DNA of 14,134 nt from NCBI GenBank assembly GCA_016209865.1, contig JACQVL010000324.1, positions 1 to 14,134 on the forward strand, written 5' to 3'. A program made the translations under genes and the position numbers. Shown here piece after piece: positions 1,092 through 12,789 of this stretch. This stretch comes from Candidatus Latescibacterota bacterium. GTDB lineage: Bacteria > JAAXHH01 > JACQVL01. The notes beneath the pieces were generated by a model. It had not been told where the DNA came from, made no database searches, and worked only from the letters and a program-made list of their open reading frames with translations. Position 1 is the stretch's first letter; every line of letters begins with the position of its first letter.

Positions 1092-1120
1092 AAAATATAT
1101 CCCGCACGGCAGTTCGTCAA
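1092..1120 (-). promoter_or_regulatory. Sigma70-like promoter for the TPR gene, overlapping the pyrC stop
   Basis: On the minus strand TTGACG (1115-1120) is followed after 17 bp by TATTTT (1092-1097). An overlapping TATATT sits at 15 bp. The -35 box contains the TGA stop codon of pyrC (1117-1119). The rest of the 1003-1116 gap is leader sequence with an AT-rich patch and no other gene. Identification rests on consensus match and position only. Confidence 0.55.
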
Positions 1121-2466
1121 GTCTTTTCTCCCCCCGGCATCGCCCATCCAGACACGCGGCCGTCGACGATCGTATACTCGACCGCCCCCCGGAGCGTCCA
1201 TCCGTAGAACGGCGAATTCCGGGACCTGGACAGGAACACGTCCGGCGTCACCCGCCACTGGCGGTCCGGGTCGAAGACCGTCACGTCGGCCGGCGCGCCG
1301 GGCTCGAGCGTCCCGCCGGGCAGTCCTAAGATGCGGGCGGGGGCGACGGTCATCTTCCGGATGGCGTCCATCAGGCTGAGCGTCCCGGTCTGGACGAGCC
1401 GGGCGATCACCAGCCCCAGGGCGGTCTCCAGGCCGATCAGCCCGAACGGAGCCAGGTCGTATTCGACGGCCTTATCGTCGATCGTGTGCGGCGCGTGGTC
1501 GGTGGCGATCACGTCGATCGTCCCGTCCGCCAGTCCTTCCTGGATCGCCTCGACATCCCGGGCCGTCCGGAGCGGAGGGTTGACTTTCGTGTTCGTGTCG
1601 TACGTCCGCACCGCCTCGTCTGTCAGGGAGAAGTGATGGGGCGTCGCCTCCGCCGTGACGGCGATGCCCCGCCGCTTCGCCTCGCGGATGAGGACGACAG
1701 ACCCGGCGGTGCTGACGTGCGCGATGTGCAGCCGGCTGCCCGTCAACTCCGTGAGCGTAATATCACGGGCGACGATGACCTCCTCCGCCGCGTTGGGAAT
1801 CCCCTTCAGACCGAGCACCGTCGAGACGACTCCTTCGTTCATCACCCCGCCGGCCGACAGGTTCATGTCCTCACAATGGGGGATGACCGGAATCCCGAAC
1901 ATCTTCGCGTACTCCAGCGCCCGCCGCATGATGGCCGGGTCATCCACGTTCTTCCCGTCATCTGAAATCCCCACGATTCCCGCGTCAACCATCTCCGCGA
2001 TCTCGGCGAGCTGTTCCCCGCGTTCCCCTTTCGTGATCGCCCCGATCGGGTAGACCTTGATGTCCGCCTGGCGCGCCCGTTCGAGGACGAAATGGACGAC
2101 CTCCGCGTTGTCGATGACCGGGTCGGTGTTGGGCATACACGCCACCGCCGTGAACCCACCCGCTGACCCGGCCCGCGCCCCGGACTGGATCGTCTCTTTG
2201 TCCTCCCGGCCCGGCTCCCGGAGGTGGACGTGCATATCGATCAGCCCCGGCGTCACGACTTTTCCTCGAGCGTCGATGACAAACGGCCGTCGTCCGCCGG
2301 TCTCTTCACGCGCGTCGGACGGCCGCTCGATCATCCGTCCGTCTTCCATCCACACATCGCCCACCTCATCCCGGCCGGAGGCCGGGTCGACGATGCGGCC
2401 GCCCCGGATCACGACGAGCCCACGCCCGTCGGTGAGCCGCGCCGGCCCTCTATTCGACGTCATCAT
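1117..2466 (-). CDS. pyrC: Dihydroorotase (class I)
   Basis: 449 aa. Catalyses the reversible cyclisation of N-carbamoyl-aspartate to dihydroorotate, the third step of de novo UMP synthesis, in the cytoplasm. It is an amidohydrolase TIM barrel between small beta-sandwich parts. The metal and substrate residues are all visible: [10 protein letters not shown] (H79, H81, R83), GISDDG (D169/D170, the aspartate bridge typical of class I), PHCED (H197), HIAHVST (H247/H250) and ATDHAPH (D323). It should therefore be an active enzyme, unlike the inactive PyrC-like partners found in some genomes. The C-terminal RNSPFYGW and DGRV match the family end. The ATG at 2466 overlaps the end of pyrB by 17 nt. 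A second ATG directly after it (2463) sits at better spacing from the GGGGAGGGG ribosome site and may be the one used. Overlap implies translational coupling to pyrB. Confidence 0.97.
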
Positions 2467-3397
2467 CCCCTCCCCTGTTCAACAGGTACAGCACCGCCAT
2501 GCGGATGGCGATGCCGTTGGTCACCTGATCCAGGATGACGGACCGCTCGCTGTCCGCGACGTCCGTGGACAGTTCAACGCCCCGGTTGATCGGACCCGGG
2601 TGCATGATGATCGCGTGCGGCTTCGTGTGGATCAGTCGCTCCGGCGTGATGCCGAACGTCCGGGCGTACTCCCGGAGGGTCGGGAACAGCCCGCCGTGCT
2701 GGCGTTCGAGCTGGATGCGCAGGACGTTGATCACGTCCGCCTCCCGGAGCGCGTCCTCGACCCGGTAGAACACCTCAACCCCCATCGTCTCGATGCCGGG
2801 GGGGATGAGGGTCGGCGGGCCGCAGACGGCGACGGACGCCCCCATCGTGCGGAGTCCCCAGATGTTCGACCGCGCTACCCGGCTGTGGGCGATGTCGCCG
2901 ACGATGACGACACGCAGCCCGTCGACCCGGCCGAACCGGTCGCGGATGGTCAGCAGGTCGAGCAGCCCCTGGGTCGGGTGTTCGTGCGCCCCGTCCCCGG
3001 CGTTGATGACGACCGAGTGCGTCAGACAGCGCGTCAAGAACTGGGGCGCGCCGGCGGCGGCATGGCGGATGACGACGACATCCACCTTCATCGCCTCGAT
3101 GTTCCGGACGGTGTCCCGGAGCGTCTCCCCTTTGGCCACGCTGCTCGTGCTGGCTGAAAAGTTGATCACGTCGGCGGAGAGCTGCTTTTCCGCGATCTCG
3201 AACGAAATCCGCGTCCGCGTGCTCGGTTCGAAGAAGAGGTTCACGACGCTCTTCCCCCGCAGGGCCGGGACCTTCCGGATCGGCCGCTCGATCACTTCTT
3301 TGAACGAGTCGGCGGTGTCGAGGATGAGCTGAATCTCCTCGCGCGTCAGCTCCTCCAGTCCGAGGAGATGCGGGCTTCGTAACTGCACCTGTTCCAC
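2450..3397 (-). CDS. pyrB: Aspartate carbamoyltransferase catalytic subunit
   Basis: 315 aa, the usual catalytic-chain length. Transfers the carbamoyl group of carbamoyl phosphate to L-aspartate, the second step of UMP synthesis. The carbamoyl-phosphate loop FFEPSTRTR is at 55-63. Further family motifs are the SSVAKGE loop near 85-91, HPTQ at 140-143, the [12 protein letters not shown] hinge at 166-177 and the aspartate-binding [10 protein letters not shown] at 266-275. No regulatory-chain gene (pyrI) is in the window, so it is probably an unlinked trimer regulated at the RNA level by PyrR. The start is GTG at 3397, because the N-terminal [17 protein letters not shown] aligns with the family and AAGAAGGGG lies eight bases upstream. 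It sits between pyrR (71-nt gap) and pyrC (17-nt overlap). Confidence 0.97.
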
Positions 3398-3417
3398 GAT
3401 GAGAACCCCTTCTTGAG

Positions 3418-3445
3418 GATTCAGGGGTCATGATTCAGGAGTCGG
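3418..3445. repeat. 14-bp direct repeat (two 7-mers), partly inverted to the TGACCCC array
   Basis: GATTCAGGGGTCAT (3418-3431) is followed directly by GATTCAGGAGTCGG (3432-3445), differing at three positions. TCAGGGGTCA (3421-3430) is the exact reverse complement of TGACCCCTGA at 3473-3482, so the pyrR-pyrB gap can fold into a hairpin with a 42-nt loop. The gap (3398-3468) holds nothing else apart from the pyrB ribosome site. Confidence 0.7.
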
Positions 3446-3468
3446 GAAACAGAAGAAGATTTCGTCCG

Positions 3469-4041
3469 TCACTGACCCCTGACCCCTGACCCCTGACCCC
3501 TGTCCGTCCGTTCTATCGTGACGCTATCCTCTCCGTCGACCTCGCGCACGCGCACGACCACCGTCTCATGGGGCGTGGTCGGGATGTGTTCTCCGACGTA
3601 GTCCGCCTGGATGGGCAGTTCGCGGCCGTCGCGGTCGATCAGGACGGCTAACTGGATGCGCTTCGCCCGTCCGAAGTCGGTCAGCTCGTCGAGCGCCGCC
3701 CGGATCGTCCGGCCGGTGTACAGGACGTCATCGACGAGGATGATCGTCCGTCGCTCGATGTCGAACGGGATGGCAGTCTTCCGAACGACCGGCTGGGGGA
3801 AACGGGTCTGGAAATCGTCCCGGTACAGGGTGATGTCGAGCGCGCCGACCGGGATGGGGTGGCCTTCGATCTCGCTGATGAGCGTCGCCAATCGCTTCGC
3901 TAAGGAGTCGCCCCGGCGCCGAATCCCGACGAGCGCGATGTCCGTCGCCCCCCGGTTGCGTTCCACCACCTCATGGGCGATGCGGGTCATCACCCGGAAC
4001 ATCCCCTTTTCGTCCAGGACGAGCGTGGTTTCTTCAGGCAT
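3469..4041 (-). CDS. pyrR: Bifunctional PyrR: pyr operon RNA-binding regulator / uracil phosphoribosyltransferase
   Basis: 190 aa. PyrR proteins bind pyr mRNA when UMP is abundant and lower expression of the operon; they also convert uracil and PRPP to UMP. The type I PRTase fold shows IRRRGDSLAKRL (40-51) and the 13-residue PRPP loop IILVDDVLYTGRT (100-112) with D104/D105. The family C-terminal strand VGEHIPTTPHETVVVRVREV is at 149-168. The normal family end falls near residue 180. The last ten residues (RGQGSGVRGQ) are encoded by the TGACCCC repeat array, so the tail is repeat-derived and the stop codon sits just beside the array. The start is ATG at 4041, with GAGGG seven bases upstream. 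It leads pyrR-pyrB-pyrC. I saw no recognisable PyrR-binding attenuator in the 82-nt leader. Confidence 0.95.
   Translation of the reverse strand: MPEETTLVLDEKGMFRVMTRIAHEVVERNRGATDIALVGIRRRGDSLAKRLATLISEIEGHPIPVGALDITLYRDDFQTRFPQPVVRKTAIPFDIERRTIILVDDVLYTGRTIRAALDELTDFGRAKRIQLAVLIDRDGRELPIQADYVGEHIPTTPHETVVVRVREVDGEDSVTIERTDRGQGSGVRGQ
3473..3500. repeat. Heptamer array TGACCCC x4
   Basis: Four perfect tandem TGACCCC units (3473-3479, 3480-3486, 3487-3493, 3494-3500), followed by a decayed TGTCC. Read on the minus strand it encodes the last residues of PyrR, and the pyrR stop lies within or beside the first unit. Confidence 0.95.
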
Positions 4042-5002: not shown

Positions 5003-5037
5003 CCCGAATCCCGAACCCCTAACCCCCAATCCCGAGT
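5003..5037. repeat. Heptamer array CCCGAAT-type x5, copy 1
   Basis: Five consecutive 7-bp units: CCCGAAT, CCCGAAC, CCCTAAC, CCCCAAT, CCCGAGT. The third contains the TAG stop (5019-5021) of the 1592-aa gene, and its last residues (LGIGG) are encoded by the array. A second five-unit array of the same family is inside the same gene at 9382-9416. Confidence 0.9.
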
Positions 5038-8000
5038 GCCGTCCGCCCCGTCTGAGCGTACTCGTTCTTCAAGTCCTGCGGGAGGGTGCGCCAGACGAGA
5101 AACCGCTTGCGCAGGACGCTCAAGAAGCGCCGGTTGATCCGCTGCCAGGAGGCCACATCCCCGCTCTCCCGGTGAATATCCACCTTCACCGCGTACAGGT
5201 CGCGCTCCGCCTCGGCCGGGGCGGCCATCAGGGAGACTCGCTGGCTGATCCCCAAGTCATACGGCGCGAGCCAGGTCATCATCGAAATCTGGTACTGCCG
5301 CGCCCCGTTCTGGCTCTGGGACGTCAGCGTCACGTCTTCCGTCACGAACGCGCCTAACGACCCTTCCTCATACGACTCGAACACCCGGGTCAGGTACGCA
5401 TACATCCCTAACACCTCGACACTCCCGATCGTGAACGGGAAGTCGAACCGCCACTCGTCCCCGTCCGGCTCGGGGAACTTCCACTCCCGGCCGACATCCG
5501 GGACGGCCATGTCCGCCGCTTTCTTCGCCGGGTAGGCGGTGGACAGGAAGACCGTCCCCATCACGACGAGTGTCGACCACATCGCGGACAGCGACGAATA
5601 GTTGAGCGACAGCCCGACCAGCCAGCCTTTCGAGACGAGGACGAGGGAGAGGATTTGACCGACCAGATAACCCATGACCGCCCCGACCGTGGCGAACACG
5701 GCAGACTCCGCCAGGAACAGCGACGCGATATGGCTCGGCGCCAGCCCGACGGAGCTGTACACCCCGATCTCACGGAACCGCTCGTGCACCGCCCCCATCA
5801 TCGTGTTGAGGACGATCATCGCGGCGACGAGGATGGGGATGGCGAAGTTCTGGACGCCGGAGATGGAGGTCGACCCGATCGAGCTGTAGACGTTAACGTT
5901 GCCGTCCTTGCCGACGAACATCGTCAGGGCGACGCGGGAGAGGAAATCCTCGATATCCACGTCGAACGCCTCGTTCGGCCGGCCCTGCTCGTCCCGGAAA
6001 TCGGTGATGGCCACGGATTGCATCGTCCCGCCGAGTTCCATCACCGTCTCGAACGGGAGGATCATCACGTTGTTCGACTCTAAGTGGATGAACGCTTCCG
6101 GCGGAGACTCGGCCTGGAGCCTCGGGTCCTCCCCGATCCGCTGGTCGATCTTCCCCTTCTCCTGGACGAGGTCGACGGGGGTCAGCTTCTCATCGTCTAA
6201 ATCTTTCACCTGATTGAACCGCTTAGAGTCGATAATCCCGACGACCTTGAGGGTCAGACCGAACATCTGGATCGACGCATTCCCCGCGTCCTGGGGCGTC
6301 AGGCCGACGACGCTGGCGATGTCATCCGGCAGGATGCAGGCGGCGCGTTCGCCCGGATTGAACCACCGGCCGCCTAAGAGGAATTGATCGAGCTTCGACG
6401 CTTTCGGTTCATCCGCGCTCAGGCCGAGCAGGCTGTTGACGTAGCTCTCCTTCTGAGCGGCCGGCAACGCGAACGTGAAGTACCCTTTCTCGCCCTTCAC
6501 CTGCGACATGAACCAGGCGCGCGGGATGAGGGTCGCCCGTTGCTCGAACGCGCTCTTCAGGTAATCGTAGATCGACGGCTGGAGACCTTTCCAGTTCCGA
6601 TCCCGGACGAGCGTCCCTTCGTACAACGCCGGGTTGTCGCGTCCTAACTTGTAGTACTTGAGGGAGGTGGAGATCGACGTGAACGACAGCACCGTGAACG
6701 TCAGCAGGGTGATCGTGACCGCCGTCAGGCCGGTCCGGATCTTGCGCTTGCGGAGGTTGGAGATGCCCAGTGAGATTGCCACCGCCGTCGCGCTCAACCG
6801 GCCGATGTCCGCCTCGTGCATCCCGGTCGACGCCCGTTTCATCTTCTGGACTTCCTGGTTGAACTTGGAGAGGACGATGAACAGGACGATCACGCCGAGC
6901 GCCATGATGACGAACGCTAAGAAGATGACGTACGGGGAGGTGCTGAGCTTGAACGCAGGGTGGACTTGCTGGAGGATGAGGAAGACGAGGACGAAGATGC
7001 CCGCGAACGCGGCGATCCGTTTGTTGATCGTCGGGAACCCGAACAGGAGGCGCTCCATGAAGAACGAGAACGGCAGGAGGAGGACGAAGTAGAAGATGAC
7101 CCCTTTGACCGTATCGTCCGCCGTGGCCTTCACGTCCGGGTAGCCGCGCGCTTCCAGTCCCCAGGCCCGCCGGGCGGCCGAGATGAACGCGTCGTACCGC
7201 TTCGCTTCGAGGTGCTGATTCGCTTCGATCAGGCTGAGCCGGGCCTCTTCGTGGAGCTTCGTGATCCGCTGGTTCTCCACCCCAAACCGGGCGAGTTGCT
7301 TCAGCCGGACGTCGTCGATGATCCACATGTCCTTCGCCCCCCGGTACGACGGATGGACGATCAGCCCATCGTCCACCAGGTATCCCTGTCCCTGCGCTTT
7401 CTCCAGAAGGCTGAGGGTGACGTCGTTCGGCTGGACGGGGGTGAGGAGCAGGGAATCGGGCGCGTTCGTCAGGAGGTACTTGATCCCGAACAGGCTCGTC
7501 CCCATCAGCAGTTTGAGCCGCTGACCCGGCTTGGCGAGCACGACCGCCGCTAACACCGTCCGCCTTTCCCAGCCGCTCTGGTTGGGGACGTAACTATAGC
7601 CGTACCATTGCGGCGCGGCGTCGTCCGGGCCGAGGATCGTCAGGTTGTCCAGGGCGGTCAGGTACCGGGAATCGATGATCTCGTAGATGTCTAACGACCG
7701 GCAGGGGAACACGATCTGCAGCGTCGAATTCTCCCACCCGCCGCTCGCCGCGCTGAGCGGGTAGGTGCCGTCCCCCTCCGTCCCGTAGTCCGGCCCGTAG
7801 ACGATCTCCCCGTCTTCATTCAGCTTGTACGAGTGCAGGCGGATCGACCCGGTCTCCCGGAGGGGCTTGAAGCTGAACTGGCCGACCGAATCCGCTTTCG
7901 TCACCATGATCCCCCGGACGCCGCTGTGGGAGAGGGTATGGAAGTAGGTGACCAGCGCCCCCGGGATGAACTTCTTCGGGACGAAGAAATTGATGTCCCG

Positions 8001-9797
8001 GTCGAATTCCACGACCGTCCCGCTCAGGTCGTGGGCGGTGTCCTGGATGCGGAGTTTCGTCTCCTCGAACAGTCCGGCGTCGGAGGAAGCGCGGGCGATG
8101 ATGACGGCGAGCGATTTCGCCTGCTCGACGACGTTGGGGAGGTTGACCTGCTCGAACCGATCCACGGGGGTATCGACGCGCTCCCGCGACCCGTTGGGGG
8201 TGACGAACGACATCCCTTTTTTCCCGAAGAACGTGACCGCCTCGTTATCCAGCCCGATCGGGACGGGCATGAAGTCCTTCCACGTCCGCTGCGGCGGGAT
8301 GATCGCGTTCACGTACCGGAGGGAATCCGCCCCGGCCCCGAACCCTTCCTGGATGTAGGAGGCGAACTTCTTCGAGTACGGAGCGAAGATGTTCTTGATG
8401 TAATGGTTCGTCGCCCAGGCGGGGTTGTAGAACGTGCCGAAGCAGAAGCTGCCGACCCGCGAGTCGTGGCTGGAGAGGTCGAGGCCGAAGAACACGTCGA
8501 AGTCGATCTTGTCCGGCTCCGGGATGCGCTGCATGAAATAGTCGCTCGCCCGGCCGTGACGGTACAGGAAGTTGTTGATGCCTTCCATGCCCAGGAAATG
8601 CGCGGACGTCGCCAGGAACAACACAGTGTATTTCGGTCGATACGCCTTGACCGCCTTCGCCACCTCGAACAACGCCGCGATGCCCGTCGCGCTCTCCGCG
8701 CCGGGCGCGAGCCGGGGGACGACCGACATCGCGTCGTAGAACGACTCGACGACGATGGTGTGGTCTTTCCACTTGCGCTTGTCCCCCCTCGCCCCCGGCA
8801 TCTCCTCGTCGAGGCCGGGAAGGACGCCGTAGACGTTCTTCGCCTGAACCCGTTCCCAGTCCATCCGGGCTCTGACCGTCACCCGGGCGGTGCCGGATTC
8901 TGACAGTGCGATCAGACGGTCCGCGTCCCCCCGCTCGACCCAGTAGCGCGGGATGTTGACCGGGAGGCCCATGAACTTCCGTTCCGCGTCGCCCCGTGTG
9001 ACGAGGCCGTTATCGAAGAAAATGACCGCCTGCGCCCCGAGCATCCGGGCGTTGATGTAGTTCTCCCCCGAATCGAAGTCCATCAGGACGATGCTGCCCT
9101 TGACCTCGTTCCCGTTGAAATCCCGGAAATCTCCCTTGCGGGCGTAGAGGAGCGGGCCGGTCAGCCCGGCTCGCGGGGTGGTCGAGGTGCGGACGTGGTT
9201 CGGCCAGAGGGAGTAGAGGCGGAGAAGACGGGGTTGGGGGGAAGAAAGGACGAAGGACGAAGGACGAAGGACGAAGGACGAATCCGGTGAGCCGGAAACC
9301 TGAAGTTGAGTCTCTGAAGCATCAAGCACGGAATCCGGAACCGGGACTCCGAGATCGAGGGTGGAATCCGGTCTGTCCGTCCCCGAACCCCGAACCCCCA
9401 ATCCCGAATCCCGGATGATTAAGACCGCGCCCTTATCGATCGGGACGGTCACCGTGAACGTGTCCGTCCGGACGTCCTGGAGTCCGATCTGCTCGAACTG
9501 CGCCCGCACATACTCGGAAGCCCGGTCCGCCCCCCGGTAGCCGACGACGCGCGACCCGAACGAAGACAGGGTGCCGATCGTACTCCGGATGGATTCTTCA
9601 TTCACCGCGTTCAACGCATCGTTCAGGGGCTGATCGTTCGACACCGCGACGAGCGTAGACGGGCCGACCGGCTCCGGGAGGGTGATCAACTTCATCAGGA
9701 TATGGTCGGTAATCCACTTCGGATGAAAGATCGTCACCGACGACAGCATGAGCGCAGCGACGAGCAGACCGATCCCGGTTTTGATCTTCGACCACAT
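5019..9797 (-). CDS. Large membrane protein: PA-M28-like (degenerate) extracytoplasmic domain fused to FtsX/MacB-type permease
   Basis: 1592 aa. ATG at 9797 follows GAGGAGA at seven bases. In order: signal anchor 8-25; PA-like segment 205-265 (LTGPLLYARKGDFRDFNGN, GSIVLMDFDSG, ARMLGAQAVIFFDNG); M28-peptidase-like domain about 345-560; uncharacterised extracytoplasmic region 590-895; helices near 897-918, 928-944 and 954-977; then an FtsX permease with helix 1024-1045, periplasmic core 1050-1315, helices 1317-1335, 1358-1388 and 1402-1422, and a coupling-helix motif RFREIGVYSSVGLAPSHIASL (1341 on). Positive charges before helix 1024 agree with this topology. A cytoplasmic tail of about 165 aa follows. 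In the M28 part the usual HxD His is F353, the GAxDN motif reads GAESATG, the EE pair is A399-H400 and the late His is replaced, so peptidase activity is doubtful. Residues 128-190 are a repeat-derived insert. MacB-type permeases need an ABC ATPase; none is in the window. Confidence 0.9.
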   Translation of the reverse strand: MWSKIKTGIGLLVAALMLSSVTIFHPKWITDHILMKLITLPEPVGPSTLVAVSNDQPLNDALNAVNEESIRSTIGTLSSFGSRVVGYRGADRASEYVRAQFEQIGLQDVRTDTFTVTVPIDKGAVLIIRDSGLGVRGSGTDRPDSTLDLGVPVPDSVLDASETQLQVSGSPDSSFVLRPSSFVLSSPQPRLLRLYSLWPNHVRTSTTPRAGLTGPLLYARKGDFRDFNGNEVKGSIVLMDFDSGENYINARMLGAQAVIFFDNGLVTRGDAERKFMGLPVNIPRYWVERGDADRLIALSESGTARVTVRARMDWERVQAKNVYGVLPGLDEEMPGARGDKRKWKDHTIVVESFYDAMSVVPRLAPGAESATGIAALFEVAKAVKAYRPKYTVLFLATSAHFLGMEGINNFLYRHGRASDYFMQRIPEPDKIDFDVFFGLDLSSHDSRVGSFCFGTFYNPAWATNHYIKNIFAPYSKKFASYIQEGFGAGADSLRYVNAIIPPQRTWKDFMPVPIGLDNEAVTFFGKKGMSFVTPNGSRERVDTPVDRFEQVNLPNVVEQAKSLAVIIARASSDAGLFEETKLRIQDTAHDLSGTVVEFDRDINFFVPKKFIPGALVTYFHTLSHSGVRGIMVTKADSVGQFSFKPLRETGSIRLHSYKLNEDGEIVYGPDYGTEGDGTYPLSAASGGWENSTLQIVFPCRSLDIYEIIDSRYLTALDNLTILGPDDAAPQWYGYSYVPNQSGWERRTVLAAVVLAKPGQRLKLLMGTSLFGIKYLLTNAPDSLLLTPVQPNDVTLSLLEKAQGQGYLVDDGLIVHPSYRGAKDMWIIDDVRLKQLARFGVENQRITKLHEEARLSLIEANQHLEAKRYDAFISAARRAWGLEARGYPDVKATADDTVKGVIFYFVLLLPFSFFMERLLFGFPTINKRIAAFAGIFVLVFLILQQVHPAFKLSTSPYVIFLAFVIMALGVIVLFIVLSKFNQEVQKMKRASTGMHEADIGRLSATAVAISLGISNLRKRKIRTGLTAVTITLLTFTVLSFTSISTSLKYYKLGRDNPALYEGTLVRDRNWKGLQPSIYDYLKSAFEQRATLIPRAWFMSQVKGEKGYFTFALPAAQKESYVNSLLGLSADEPKASKLDQFLLGGRWFNPGERAACILPDDIASVVGLTPQDAGNASIQMFGLTLKVVGIIDSKRFNQVKDLDDEKLTPVDLVQEKGKIDQRIGEDPRLQAESPPEAFIHLESNNVMILPFETVMELGGTMQSVAITDFRDEQGRPNEAFDVDIEDFLSRVALTMFVGKDGNVNVYSSIGSTSISGVQNFAIPILVAAMIVLNTMMGAVHERFREIGVYSSVGLAPSHIASLFLAESAVFATVGAVMGYLVGQILSLVLVSKGWLVGLSLNYSSLSAMWSTLVVMGTVFLSTAYPAKKAADMAVPDVGREWKFPEPDGDEWRFDFPFTIGSVEVLGMYAYLTRVFESYEEGSLGAFVTEDVTLTSQSQNGARQYQISMMTWLAPYDLGISQRVSLMAAPAEAERDLYAVKVDIHRESGDVASWQRINRRFLSVLRKRFLVWRTLPQDLKNEYAQTGRTALGIGG
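9248..9282. repeat. Heptamer array GGACGAA x5 inside a coding region
   Basis: Five perfect tandem GGACGAA units. On the minus strand (TTCGTCC) they encode the SFVLRPS-type peptide near residues 174-184 of the large permease. Seven is not a multiple of three, so gain or loss of one unit would shift the frame. Confidence 0.95.
9382..9416. repeat. Heptamer array CCCGAAC-type x5, copy 2, inside a coding region
   Basis: CCCGAAC, CCCGAAC, CCCCAAT, CCCGAAT, CCCGGAT in tandem. Same family as 5003-5037. It encodes the RDSGLGVRGSGT segment at about residues 129-140 of the large permease. Confidence 0.9.
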
Positions 9798-9852: not shown

Positions 9853-10733
9853 GTGCGTGCGAACGCAACCACCGTGCGCGCGTACCCGTCCGGCACGCCC
9901 ACGTCGTACCGTTCCCCTTGCATCTCGTACGCGTAACCGCCCTCGGCCTGGCGGACCCGTTCGAGGGCGCTCGTCAGTTGAATCTCTCGCTGCTCCCGCA
10001 CGTCATGCTGGATCGCAAATTGCAGTCCCTCGAAGACACCGGGCGTCAGCGCATACTGCCCGAAGAAGCAGAGGTAGGCGCCCGCTTCAAGACCGTCGAT
10101 CCGCAGACGCGCGCGCGCATCGGCCACTGACGGCTTCTCGGCGAACGCTGTGACCCGGTAGACGCGCGGCATATCCGCAAGCGGACTCCCCCCGATCGTC
10201 CCGAACAGGTGGAGCCACTCCTCCGGTGTGCGCTTGACGGCGACGACGCTCCGGCCGAGCCGGTCGAACGTGTCGAGCAACTGACGCGCGCAGGGCGTCG
10301 CGGTCTCCGACCGGGAGAGATGATCCCCTAACATCAGCAAGAAGGGGGCGTCCCCGACCCACGACCGGGCGCAGAAGACGGCATGGCCGAACCCTTCGGG
10401 TTGTGGCTGGACGACGTAGTCCACGTGCCGGCCGAGTTCCAGCACGCGTTCGACAGCACGAACCAGACCTGAGTCCGCCAGCCGGGCTTCGACGTCCGCC
10501 GGGAGCGTCTCCGTAAAATACCGGCGAAAGACGGCCTCATCCTCCGGCCGGACGATGAGGCACACCTGCTCGATCCCTGAGACACACGCTTCCTCGACGA
10601 TCAGTTGGATGACCGGTTTCACCGTCCCGTCGCGGTCGACGACCGGGAACAACTCTTTCTTGACCGCTCTCGCTGCCGGATAGAGCCGCGTCCCAAGCCC
10701 GGCGACCGGGACAACCGCTTTCGTGATGGGCAT
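9849..10733 (-). CDS. galU: GalU-like sugar-1-phosphate nucleotidyltransferase (UTP-glucose-1-phosphate uridylyltransferase family)
   Basis: 294 aa, usual GalU length. GalU makes UDP-glucose from UTP and glucose-1-phosphate for cell-envelope glycans. The N-terminal nucleotide loop VAGLGTRLYPAARAVKKELF (10-29) has R16 and K26 in the GalU positions. Further matches are IVEEA (45-49), QPEGFGHAVFCA (111-122), the metal site LLMLGDH with D137, FAEKP (197-201) and YDVGVPDGY (276-284). Two oddities: the usual PKEMLPVVDKP segment has KKELFPVVDRDGTVKP, with Lys for Pro and about four inserted residues, and the reading frame ends inside a dispersed palindrome. The start is ATG at 10733. No good Shine-Dalgarno precedes it, because the upstream 30 bp is a heptamer array, yet the PITKAVVP start matches the family. 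Another nucleotide-sugar pyrophosphorylase specificity is possible. Confidence 0.85.
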   Translation of the reverse strand: MPITKAVVPVAGLGTRLYPAARAVKKELFPVVDRDGTVKPVIQLIVEEACVSGIEQVCLIVRPEDEAVFRRYFTETLPADVEARLADSGLVRAVERVLELGRHVDYVVQPQPEGFGHAVFCARSWVGDAPFLLMLGDHLSRSETATPCARQLLDTFDRLGRSVVAVKRTPEEWLHLFGTIGGSPLADMPRVYRVTAFAEKPSVADARARLRIDGLEAGAYLCFFGQYALTPGVFEGLQFAIQHDVREQREIQLTSALERVRQAEGGYAYEMQGERYDVGVPDGYARTVVAFART

Positions 10734-10742
10734 TGAAAATCA

Positions 10743-10859
10743 GTGACGAGTGACGAGTGACCAGTGACAAGTTTAAGAGTAAGAACAATGAGGACAAGTC
10801 CTCAGCACGCCAGTTTTTGCCCGTTGCTCTTACTCGTCACTGGTCACTCGTCACTGCTG
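10743..10859. repeat. Inverted heptamer arrays (GTGACGA type) flanking a 67-bp spacer
   Basis: Left array GTGACGA, GTGACGA, GTGACCA, GTGACAA (10743-10770). Right array ACTCGTC, ACTGGTC, ACTCGTC, ACTGCTG (10832-10859). AGTGACGAGTGACCAGTGAC at 10749-10768 is perfectly inverted at 10836-10855. It fills nearly all of the 126-bp gap between the DUF5989 gene and galU, and no gene is seen in it. Confidence 0.9.
10780..10804 (-). terminator. Possible terminator after the carbamoyltransferase cassette
   Basis: TGAGGACTTGTCCTCA (10789-10804, minus strand) is a perfect short palindrome followed by TTGTTCTTA. The T-run is interrupted and the stem is short, so this is a weak candidate. The flanking inverted heptamers could also fold around it. 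Confidence 0.3.
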
Positions 10860-11039
10860 TTAAAACAGCGTATAGATGAACGGCGCGAGCGCCGAGCCCT
10901 GCGTCAGGACGATGAGGGTGCTGAGCAGGATGAGCAGGATCATGATCGGCGCCAGCCACCATTTCTTCCGGACGCGCATGAACGCCCACAGTTCGACGAA
11001 GATCGAGAGTTTATCGGCAAGGTTCGAGAAAAATCCCAT
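10860..11039 (-). CDS. DUF5989-type small membrane protein next to carbamoyltransferase
   Basis: 59 aa with one transmembrane helix (about 28-46). From the N-terminus: an amphipathic segment FSNLADKLSIFVELWAF, a basic RVRKKWWLAP (22-31), the helix, then the conserved-looking tail QGSALAPFIYTLF (47-59). This pattern matches my memory of the DUF5989 family, which sits beside NodU/CmcH-type carbamoyltransferases; its function is unknown. I chose ATG at 11039 because AAGGAGATGG (11041-11050) lies just before it. A longer reading from 11063 would begin inside the carbamoyltransferase and put the ribosome site within the gene. The stop of the carbamoyltransferase is 10 bases upstream, so the two are translationally coupled. 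Confidence 0.82.
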   Translation of the reverse strand: MGFFSNLADKLSIFVELWAFMRVRKKWWLAPIMILLILLSTLIVLTQGSALAPFIYTLF

Positions 11040-11050: not shown

Positions 11051-12789
11051 CAATCCAACTCAAACTGTTTCTGCCAATCGATATCGTCCGCTAAGGGTTT
11101 CATCTCTCGCTTGTCCAGGATGTACGACCCCATGACGAGATAATCCATGTGCGTGCGCATGAAGCACAGGTACGCATCGTGGGGGGTGCAGACAATCGGC
11201 TCGCCCCGGACGTTGAATGAGGTGTTGATGATCACCGGGACGCCCGTGAGATCGTCGAAGGCACGAATCAGGTCGTAGAACAGGGGGTTTTCGTCACGGG
11301 TGACGGTTTGAATCCGTGCGGAACCATCCACGTGCGTGACGGACGGGATGACCCGCTTCTCCGGGCGGACCTGGGCGACTAAGAGCATGTAGGGGCTGGG
11401 CCGGTCGAGGTCGAAGTACTCCGAGACCCGTTCCGCTAAGACGGACGGGGCGAACGGCCGAAAGCTCTCCCGGAATTTGATCTTCAGGTTGACGATGTCT
11501 TTATTCTTCGGGTTCCGGGCATCCGCTAAGATGCTCCGGCTCCCCAGCGCCCTCGGGCCGAATTCCATCCGGCCCTGGAACCAGCCGACGACGTGCTGGT
11601 CGGCGATCAACTGGGCGGTCGTCTTCAGCAGGTCTTCGCGGCTGGACGCGGTGAACGGGATGTCGTGCTGGACGAGGTACTGGCGGATTTCGTCATCTGA
11701 GTATTCCGGCCCCAGGTAGGCATGCGTCATGAGTGTCGTCCGTGGATGGCCGAGCAGGGTGTGGTAGAGGTACGCCGCCGCGCCGACGGCTCCGCCCGCG
11801 TCGCCCGCCGCCGGCTGGATGAACAGGTCGTCGAACGGCCCTTCCCGGAGCACCCGCCCGTTGGCCACGCAGTTCAACGCCACCCCCCCGGCCAGGCACA
11901 GGTTTTTCATGCCGGTGACCGCGTGGAGATGACGAGCCATGCAGAGGACGATCTCTTCCGTCACCTTCTGGATGCTCGCCGCGATGTCCCAATGACGCTG
12001 TTCGAGCTTCGACTCCGGTTCCCGCGGCGGCCCGCCGAATAATGCGCTGAAGTGGCCGTTCGTCATCGTCAGGCCGTAGTCGTACGCAAAGTACTTCATG
12101 TTCATCTTGAAACTGCCGTCGTCGTTGACGTGGATCAGCTCGCGCCGGATGAGGTCGTAGTACGTCGGCTCCCCGTACGGGGCCGCGCCCATGACTTTGT
12201 ACTCCGCGCTGTTGACCTTGAACCCGAGGTAGTACGTAAACGCGCTGTAGAGGAGGCCTAAGGAGTGAGGGAACCGGATCTCGGACAGGATGTGTATCTG
12301 CGTCCCGCGTCCCGCCCCGTACGTCGCCGTCGCCCATTCCCCGACCCCGTCGATCGTCAGGATGGCCGCCGACTCGAACGGGGAGACGAGGAAACAACTG
12401 GCGGCGTGCGACTGATGGTGCTCGGTAAACAGAATCTCTCCCGTATACCCCAGCTCTTTCCTGATGATGTTCGGCGTCCAGAGCTTCTCGTGCAGCCAGA
12501 TGGGAATGGCTTTCGTGAACGACGGGAAGGAGCGCGGGAACGTGGCGATGTAGGTGTAGAGAATCCGCTCGAATTTGATGAAGGGTTTGTCGTAGAACCC
12601 GATGTAGTCGAGGTCGTTCGGGCCGATCCCTTCCTGGGCCAGGCAGTACCGGATGGCGTGGATGGGGAAATCGGAGTCGTGTTTCTTGCGAGTAAACCGC
12701 TCTTCCTGCGCCGCGGCGACGATCTCCCCGTCCTTGAGGAGACACGCCGCCGCGTCGTGATAGAAGCAGGAAAGGCCGAGGATGTACAT
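11050..12789 (-). CDS. NodU/CmcH/TobZ-family carbamoyltransferase
   Basis: 579 aa, full length. Family members make carbamoyl-adenylate from carbamoyl phosphate and ATP in a Kae1-like domain, then pass the carbamoyl group to a hydroxyl or amine of a sugar or other small molecule. The N-terminus YILGLSCFYHDAAACLL and QEERFTRKKHD match the family. The HHQSHAASCF motif (124-133) supplies metal ligands H124/H128; TIDGVGEW (D147) and PAAGDAGGAVGAA (D330) complete the Kae1-like site. The C-terminal domain has GWFQGRMEFGPRALGSRSIL (402-421), SFRPFAPSVL (442-451) and NTSFNVRGEPIV (522-533). The ATG at 12789 is 11 nt after the preceding gene and lacks a strong ribosome site, so coupled translation is likely. 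The acceptor is unknown. PyrB in the same region draws on the same carbamoyl phosphate. Confidence 0.95.
   Translation of the reverse strand: MYILGLSCFYHDAAACLLKDGEIVAAAQEERFTRKKHDSDFPIHAIRYCLAQEGIGPNDLDYIGFYDKPFIKFERILYTYIATFPRSFPSFTKAIPIWLHEKLWTPNIIRKELGYTGEILFTEHHQSHAASCFLVSPFESAAILTIDGVGEWATATYGAGRGTQIHILSEIRFPHSLGLLYSAFTYYLGFKVNSAEYKVMGAAPYGEPTYYDLIRRELIHVNDDGSFKMNMKYFAYDYGLTMTNGHFSALFGGPPREPESKLEQRHWDIAASIQKVTEEIVLCMARHLHAVTGMKNLCLAGGVALNCVANGRVLREGPFDDLFIQPAAGDAGGAVGAAAYLYHTLLGHPRTTLMTHAYLGPEYSDDEIRQYLVQHDIPFTASSREDLLKTTAQLIADQHVVGWFQGRMEFGPRALGSRSILADARNPKNKDIVNLKIKFRESFRPFAPSVLAERVSEYFDLDRPSPYMLLVAQVRPEKRVIPSVTHVDGSARIQTVTRDENPLFYDLIRAFDDLTGVPVIINTSFNVRGEPIVCTPHDAYLCFMRTHMDYLVMGSYILDKREMKPLADDIDWQKQFELD

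Follow-up and report, generated by a model that had tools for sequence, protein, structure and literature searches.

The open reading frame at 5019–9797 of the window (the whole 14,134-nt stretch of DNA that was analysed) is a genuine fusion, in which an ectodomain with a PA domain and an M28 fold is joined to a MacB/LolC-type FtsX permease. The encoded protein, here called the giant, belongs to the FtsX permease superfamily, and its gene marks an undescribed multi-gene system common to several little-studied phyla. We think it somewhat more likely than not that the giant makes up the larger half of a heteromeric ABC complex of type VII (MacB/LolCDE/FtsEX-like), with a dead-peptidase receptor head. 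The earlier note on this DNA had proposed a degenerate M28 peptidase fused to a MacB-like permease, which is borne out by Pfam, the profile alignment and the AlphaFold fold match; the invariance of the substitute residues, the conserved partner genes and the phylum-wide occurrence described below were absent from it. Its further suggestion, that the head could recognise peptide or lipoprotein ends and pass the signal or substrate to the permease, is a conjecture.

Table 1. Features of the giant gene, in window coordinates.
Feature	Coordinates	Strand	Basis
Whole gene, 1592 aa: pseudo-M28 ectodomain, three TM helices, FtsX permease, C-terminal domain	5019..9797	(-)	
N-terminal TM / signal anchor, residues 5–23	9729..9785	(-)	hydropathy
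M28-fold head with PA insertion, residues 51–575	8073..9647	(-)	AlphaFold model, fold match to 1amp
PA domain, residues 213–295	8913..9161	(-)	Pfam PF02225, 7.4e-7
Insert of ~60 codons, ~residues 132–190	9228..9404	(-)	private to window copy; low model confidence
F353-Y354-D355 (HxD site) to E368 (D117 region)	8694..8741	(-)	alignments
H400-F401, at the position of the E151-E152 pair	8595..8600	(-)	profile alignment
D440, equivalent to D179	8478..8480	(-)	homologue alignment
R538 and D542 (motif DTPxD; D542 at the H256 position)	8172..8186	(-)	homologue alignment
Three additional TM helices, residues 896–975	6873..7112	(-)	hydropathy and model
MacB-like periplasmic core domain, residues 1054–1302	5892..6638	(-)	fold match to 3ftj; PF12704 in relatives
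FtsX C-terminal permease domain, residues 1321–1429	5511..5837	(-)	Pfam PF02687, 3.9e-13
C-terminal domain, residues 1446–1572	5082..5462	(-)	cytoplasmic location from the helix count; fold possibly helix-grip

Hydropathy and the structure models place an ectodomain of ~870 residues between the N-terminal anchor and the three additional TM helices, and the first FtsX helix at residues 1024–1042. All Pfam matches of the giant exceed the family cut-off, including, besides the PA and FtsX domains, the M28 profile PF04389 (residues 344–500, 8.5e-7), which is also matched by 45 of 47 relatives. Two elements of an FtsX/MacB-type permease, the FtsX C-terminal domain and the MacB-like core, are present; Pfam detects the latter as PF12704 in relatives, and the model of the core fits 3ftj with a Z score of 12.8. 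The modelled FtsX domain matches HrtB, YtrF, MacB and LolC, in a permease half-model with a pTM of 0.47. In some lineages of the family the head carries further modules of glycan-binding type, namely LysM insertions (loci L085 and L086) and an F5/8 type C insertion (L082).

The AlphaFold model of residues 30–905 has a pLDDT of 85 and a pTM of 0.85, and its head shows the alpha/beta fold expected from the M28 profile. Specifically, the nearest matches are the PA-bearing M28 aminopeptidases 2ek8 and BSAP (6hc6) together with 1amp, with Z scores of 28–29; the superposition on 1amp has a Z score of 29.0 over 270 aligned residues at an rmsd of 2.6. Transferrin receptor and PSMA come after these enzymes, with a Z score of ~25. 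M28 aminopeptidases are close to the predicted head, as the earlier note had anticipated. Nicastrin, its other suggested relative, was found neither by a sequence search of solved structures, which did recover nicalin, nor among the 50 fold matches listed, an absence that says nothing against a relationship.

Aeromonas aminopeptidase (1amp numbering) has five zinc ligands, H97, D117, E152, D179 and H256, and the catalytic residue E151. We mapped these columns by aligning a profile HMM of 47 relatives with 2ek8, 6hc6 and 1amp/2anp; for D179, the correspondence to D440 comes from alignments of the family and from the M28 profile. In the window protein, H97 maps to F353, D99 to D355, E151 to H400, E152 to F401 and H256 to D542, and D440 is the sole metal ligand clearly kept, so that the five ligands and catalytic glutamate of an active M28 enzyme are not all there. 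The replacement of the HxD histidine by F353, the aspartate at the late histidine position and the retention of D440 alone had each been read correctly in the earlier note. Its loss of the EE pair likewise stands, although the pair had been placed at A399-H400, whereas AEE aligns with A399-H400-F401, one residue later. The change at D117, described as GAESATG for GAxDNxSG, also stands, but the motif is one residue short, leaving the column ambiguous: E368 either replaces D117 or stands beside the gap, and relatives have E, N, D, T or S at this position.

The same substitutions are found throughout the family. H400, D542 and D355 are each present in 48 of 48 alignable homologues and D440 in 46, the E152 column is F or Y in 46, and R538, T543 and P544 are also invariant. 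At H97 the homologues have Y, F or H (25, 20 and 3 sequences, respectively), and the D117 column is mixed. The very long heads of L085 and L086, read by eye, have the matching pattern YYD, GHF or AHF, and DTPLD. None of the 48 homologues has the canonical ligand set, which would have spoken against a pseudo-peptidase; counting either D or E as kept at D117, the maximum is three of five ligands, in two sequences. Since the substitutions recur in all 48 homologues and the model matches 1amp with a Z score of 29, the ligand losses are not chance. Judged from the alignments, both zinc sites are gone, and what stands in their place is a conserved pseudo-site rather than a product of decay, because 48 homologues, drawn from several phyla, all have H400, D542, D355 and R538.

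The gene evolves under purifying selection, with a dN/dS among close orthologues of 0.09–0.10 for the whole gene and 0.11–0.12 for the PA/M28 part. This and the invariance of the same residues across phyla rule out the reading that the peptidase domain has degenerated through disuse in a decaying gene, which we regard as scarcely credible; what speaks for it is the in-frame insert of ~60 codons at residues 132–190, private to the window copy and containing a short tandem repeat (GTCCTTC units).

The conserved residues bear as well on whether the head has kept an enzymatic activity through a rebuilt site, with a single metal or none, that would use H400, D440, D542 and D355/E368 and would act on peptides of the envelope or as a cyclase or amidase. 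The near-complete conservation of H400, D542 and D440 is consistent with such a site, and glutaminyl cyclases have the same fold as the head model (Z score ~25). Furthermore, the structure title of 2anp calls the Aeromonas enzyme with the E151H mutation functional, so that H400 by itself is no proof of inactivity; the loss of H97, E152 and H256 is the stronger argument. However, nearly all members have lost or changed the majority of the five metal ligands, an aromatic residue almost always occupies the E152 position, and a catalytic metal site would not usually vary as the H97 and D117 columns do. We therefore regard a surviving enzymatic activity as distinctly unlikely.

The giant family is present in all 16 genomes examined of the window's phylum, most of which have several paralogues, and profile searches revealed it in 5/5, 81/84 and 31/35 genomes of three other phyla; the fusion thus recurs in relatives of several phyla, a point that the earlier note had left to a profile search. 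In a sample of 288 genomes, mostly of other lineages, the giant occurs in 24, eight of them outside the window's order. The contig that carries a close orthologue is named Candidatus Latescibacterota.

The giant is accompanied by a recurring set of genes. L080, L081 and L087 share the order giant, OPT-like protein (660 aa), PqqD-like protein, short FtsX protein (~220 aa), LolD-type ATPase and GAF-GGDEF protein, with a further gene, U300, which encodes a novel protein, between the OPT-like and PqqD-like genes of L087. L085 and L086 have the order giant, OPT, U300, PqqD and ATPase, and a separate short FtsX protein was not found in these two loci; L082 has PqqD, short FtsX, ATPase, a DUF6785 gene, giant and OPT. 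The OPT-like gene lies directly downstream of the giant in 36 of the 38 loci with enough flank, and its product matches PF03169 at 4e-4, below the family cut-off. The LolD-type ATPase is 74–80% identical between phyla. A possible relationship of U300 to the C-terminal domain of the giant was rejected (hhalign probability 0.4%). The diguanylate cyclase gene (GAF-GGDEF) at the operon end, at 9412–10626 of L087 and 13676–14779 of L080, hints at c-di-GMP control.

Within the window's order, the components lie at separate loci, and the giant is not adjacent to the ATPase in the window or in its close relatives. Each of five genomes examined has one U300-PqqD-short FtsX-ATPase cluster, whose ATPase is 79–80% identical to the query ATPase, alongside about three OPT-like genes and several giants. 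Two giant paralogues of this order adjoin DUF6785/DUF6784 genes, and membrane proteins of this type, in addition to the OPT-like partner, adjoin giant paralogues at 12106–14100 of L031, 3473–5428 of L039 and 2572–4593 of L082. Two genomes encode a second ATPase copy elsewhere, 62–63% identical to the query (G199:C26:22855–23568 and G054:C154:89841–90551). In addition, another paralogue clade lies near a different ABC ATPase (L032, L035, L038, L041, L044, L045 and L049), which is ~30% identical to the LolD-type one and bears a TOBE domain in L032, a locus that also has a PhyH-like dioxygenase gene.

Co-occurrence joins the split components. Among the 288 genomes, the OPT-like protein is present in exactly the same 24 as the giant, and the LolD-type ATPase (E <= 1e-85) in 23 of these 24 and in none of the remainder; the one giant-bearing genome without an ATPase match is the window's own MAG, which is 83% complete. 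In the eight genomes outside the window's order, the sets with giant, OPT-like protein and ATPase are identical, and the chance of one such coincidence is ~1.5e-15 assuming independent genomes, a rough guide only because the genomes are related. To the question of which ATPase goes with the fusion, also raised earlier, the answer is thus likely the LolD-type ATPase, a pairing that for the window protein rests on linkage at other loci and on co-occurrence.

The giant shares the FtsX fold and the MacB-like core with MacB, LolCDE, FtsEX, YbbAP and HrtBA, and a LolD-type ATPase is its likely partner. In contrast to MacB/LolCDE-type systems, it carries in front the peptidase-fold ectodomain (870 residues) and then three TM helices, and it comes with an extra C-terminal domain, a short, putative second FtsX half, and OPT-like and PqqD-like partners. 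The OPT-like partner resembles OPT transporters and DUF6785/DUF6784 proteins but, as noted, falls below the family cut-off. The giant is not LolC/E, with LolC/LolE equivalog scores of 10.8–18.3 bits against cut-offs of 362–540. Separate LolC/E homologues were present in 11 of 11 genomes tested, so the giant is not a replacement Lol system. With the M28 aminopeptidases 2ek8, 6hc6 and 1amp, the head has the fold in common, including the PA insertion of 2ek8 and 6hc6, but it has lost the two-zinc site and is joined to a permease. Transferrin receptor, nicalin and nicastrin are membrane-bound receptors or chaperones with a non-catalytic M28 fold and an altered metal site; unlike the giant, they are eukaryotic and without a permease. 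In the open literature searched, we found no paper on an M28-FtsX fusion, on DUF6785, on the PqqD/FtsX/OPT combination or on a CARF-LolE protein.

PADLOC models (CARF_m8/LolE_TM) would make the giant a CARF-type anti-phage effector, since PDLC01991 matches residues 847–1572 at 6.5e-58. However, this match spans the permease core, which is clearly homologous, and the C-terminal domain, in most relatives the match ends near position 600 of 810, and the giant has no recognised CARF domain. The C-terminal domain, folded with the permease half, instead models as helix-grip-like, with a borderline Z score of 8.8 to Bet v1-type proteins, and its listed fold matches are not Rossmann. The phylum-wide occurrence also differs from that of patchy defence genes. 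We set this reading aside as very improbable, and caution that defence-gene models (CARF_LolE) can mislabel the giant.

In the complex that we favour, the giant and the short FtsX protein would form the two permease halves, driven by a LolD-type ATPase dimer, as suggested by the type VII ABC family. The head, with an invariant pseudo-site of Y354, D355, H400, D440, R538 and D542, would be a receptor and not an enzyme, because of its M28 fold, the precedents of transferrin receptor and nicalin, and the LysM and F5/8 type C inserts of some relatives; its ligand may be a peptide-bearing or glycopeptide envelope molecule. ATP-driven movement of the FtsX stalk could extract the ligand or hand it on, possibly to the OPT-like partner, or could relay a signal across the membrane. 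Several giant paralogues probably share a single ATPase/short-permease set in the window's order.

The FtsX-type architecture also fits a pure FtsEX-like mechanotransmitter, in which the ATPase would move the head to regulate a cell-wall enzyme without transport, and the LysM and F5/8 type C inserts and the GAF-GGDEF gene that ends some operons fit this reading too. The steady pairing with an OPT-like polytopic protein suggests, however, that something is transported, and no recurring hydrolase gene is seen beside the giant; we consider a purely mechanical role unlikely. As a tentative proposal to which we give somewhat less than even weight, the receptor-headed complex may be a new phylum-wide envelope machine for ATP-driven (glyco)peptide handling, in which two unequal FtsX halves and a dead M28 head that receives the substrate would cooperate with a protein of the OPT superfamily and a peptide-binding protein resembling PqqD.

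One odd gene thus marks a conserved multi-gene system that almost all sampled genomes of four phyla possess and that also occurs in further phyla; its ATPase is conserved to the degree of a housekeeping protein. A distribution this wide points to an envelope function of importance in little-studied bacteria. The giant is also a candidate, in bacteria, for a catalytically dead M28 peptidase that acts as a receptor coupled directly to an ABC-type permease.

The neighbours of the giant gene in the window encode a nucleotidyltransferase, a carbamoyltransferase and a TIM-barrel protein, together with pyrR-pyrB-pyrC; their names come from Pfam or from reading the translations by eye. This arrangement is largely common to the orthologue locus L037, where the TIM-barrel and carbamoyltransferase genes are likewise present, and at least two genera have pyrR-pyrB-pyrC downstream of giants of this clade (1117–4041 of the window and 8407–11295 of L037). 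ARAGORN calls a tRNA-Ala at 8649–8744, inside the giant gene over the M28 motif codons; the call is probably false, because Rfam has no match there or anywhere else in the window. Between the nucleotidyltransferase and carbamoyltransferase genes, an inverted repeat at 10733–10864 has arms of 33 nt separated by 66 nt and is made of GTGACGAGTGACCAGTGAC-type units.
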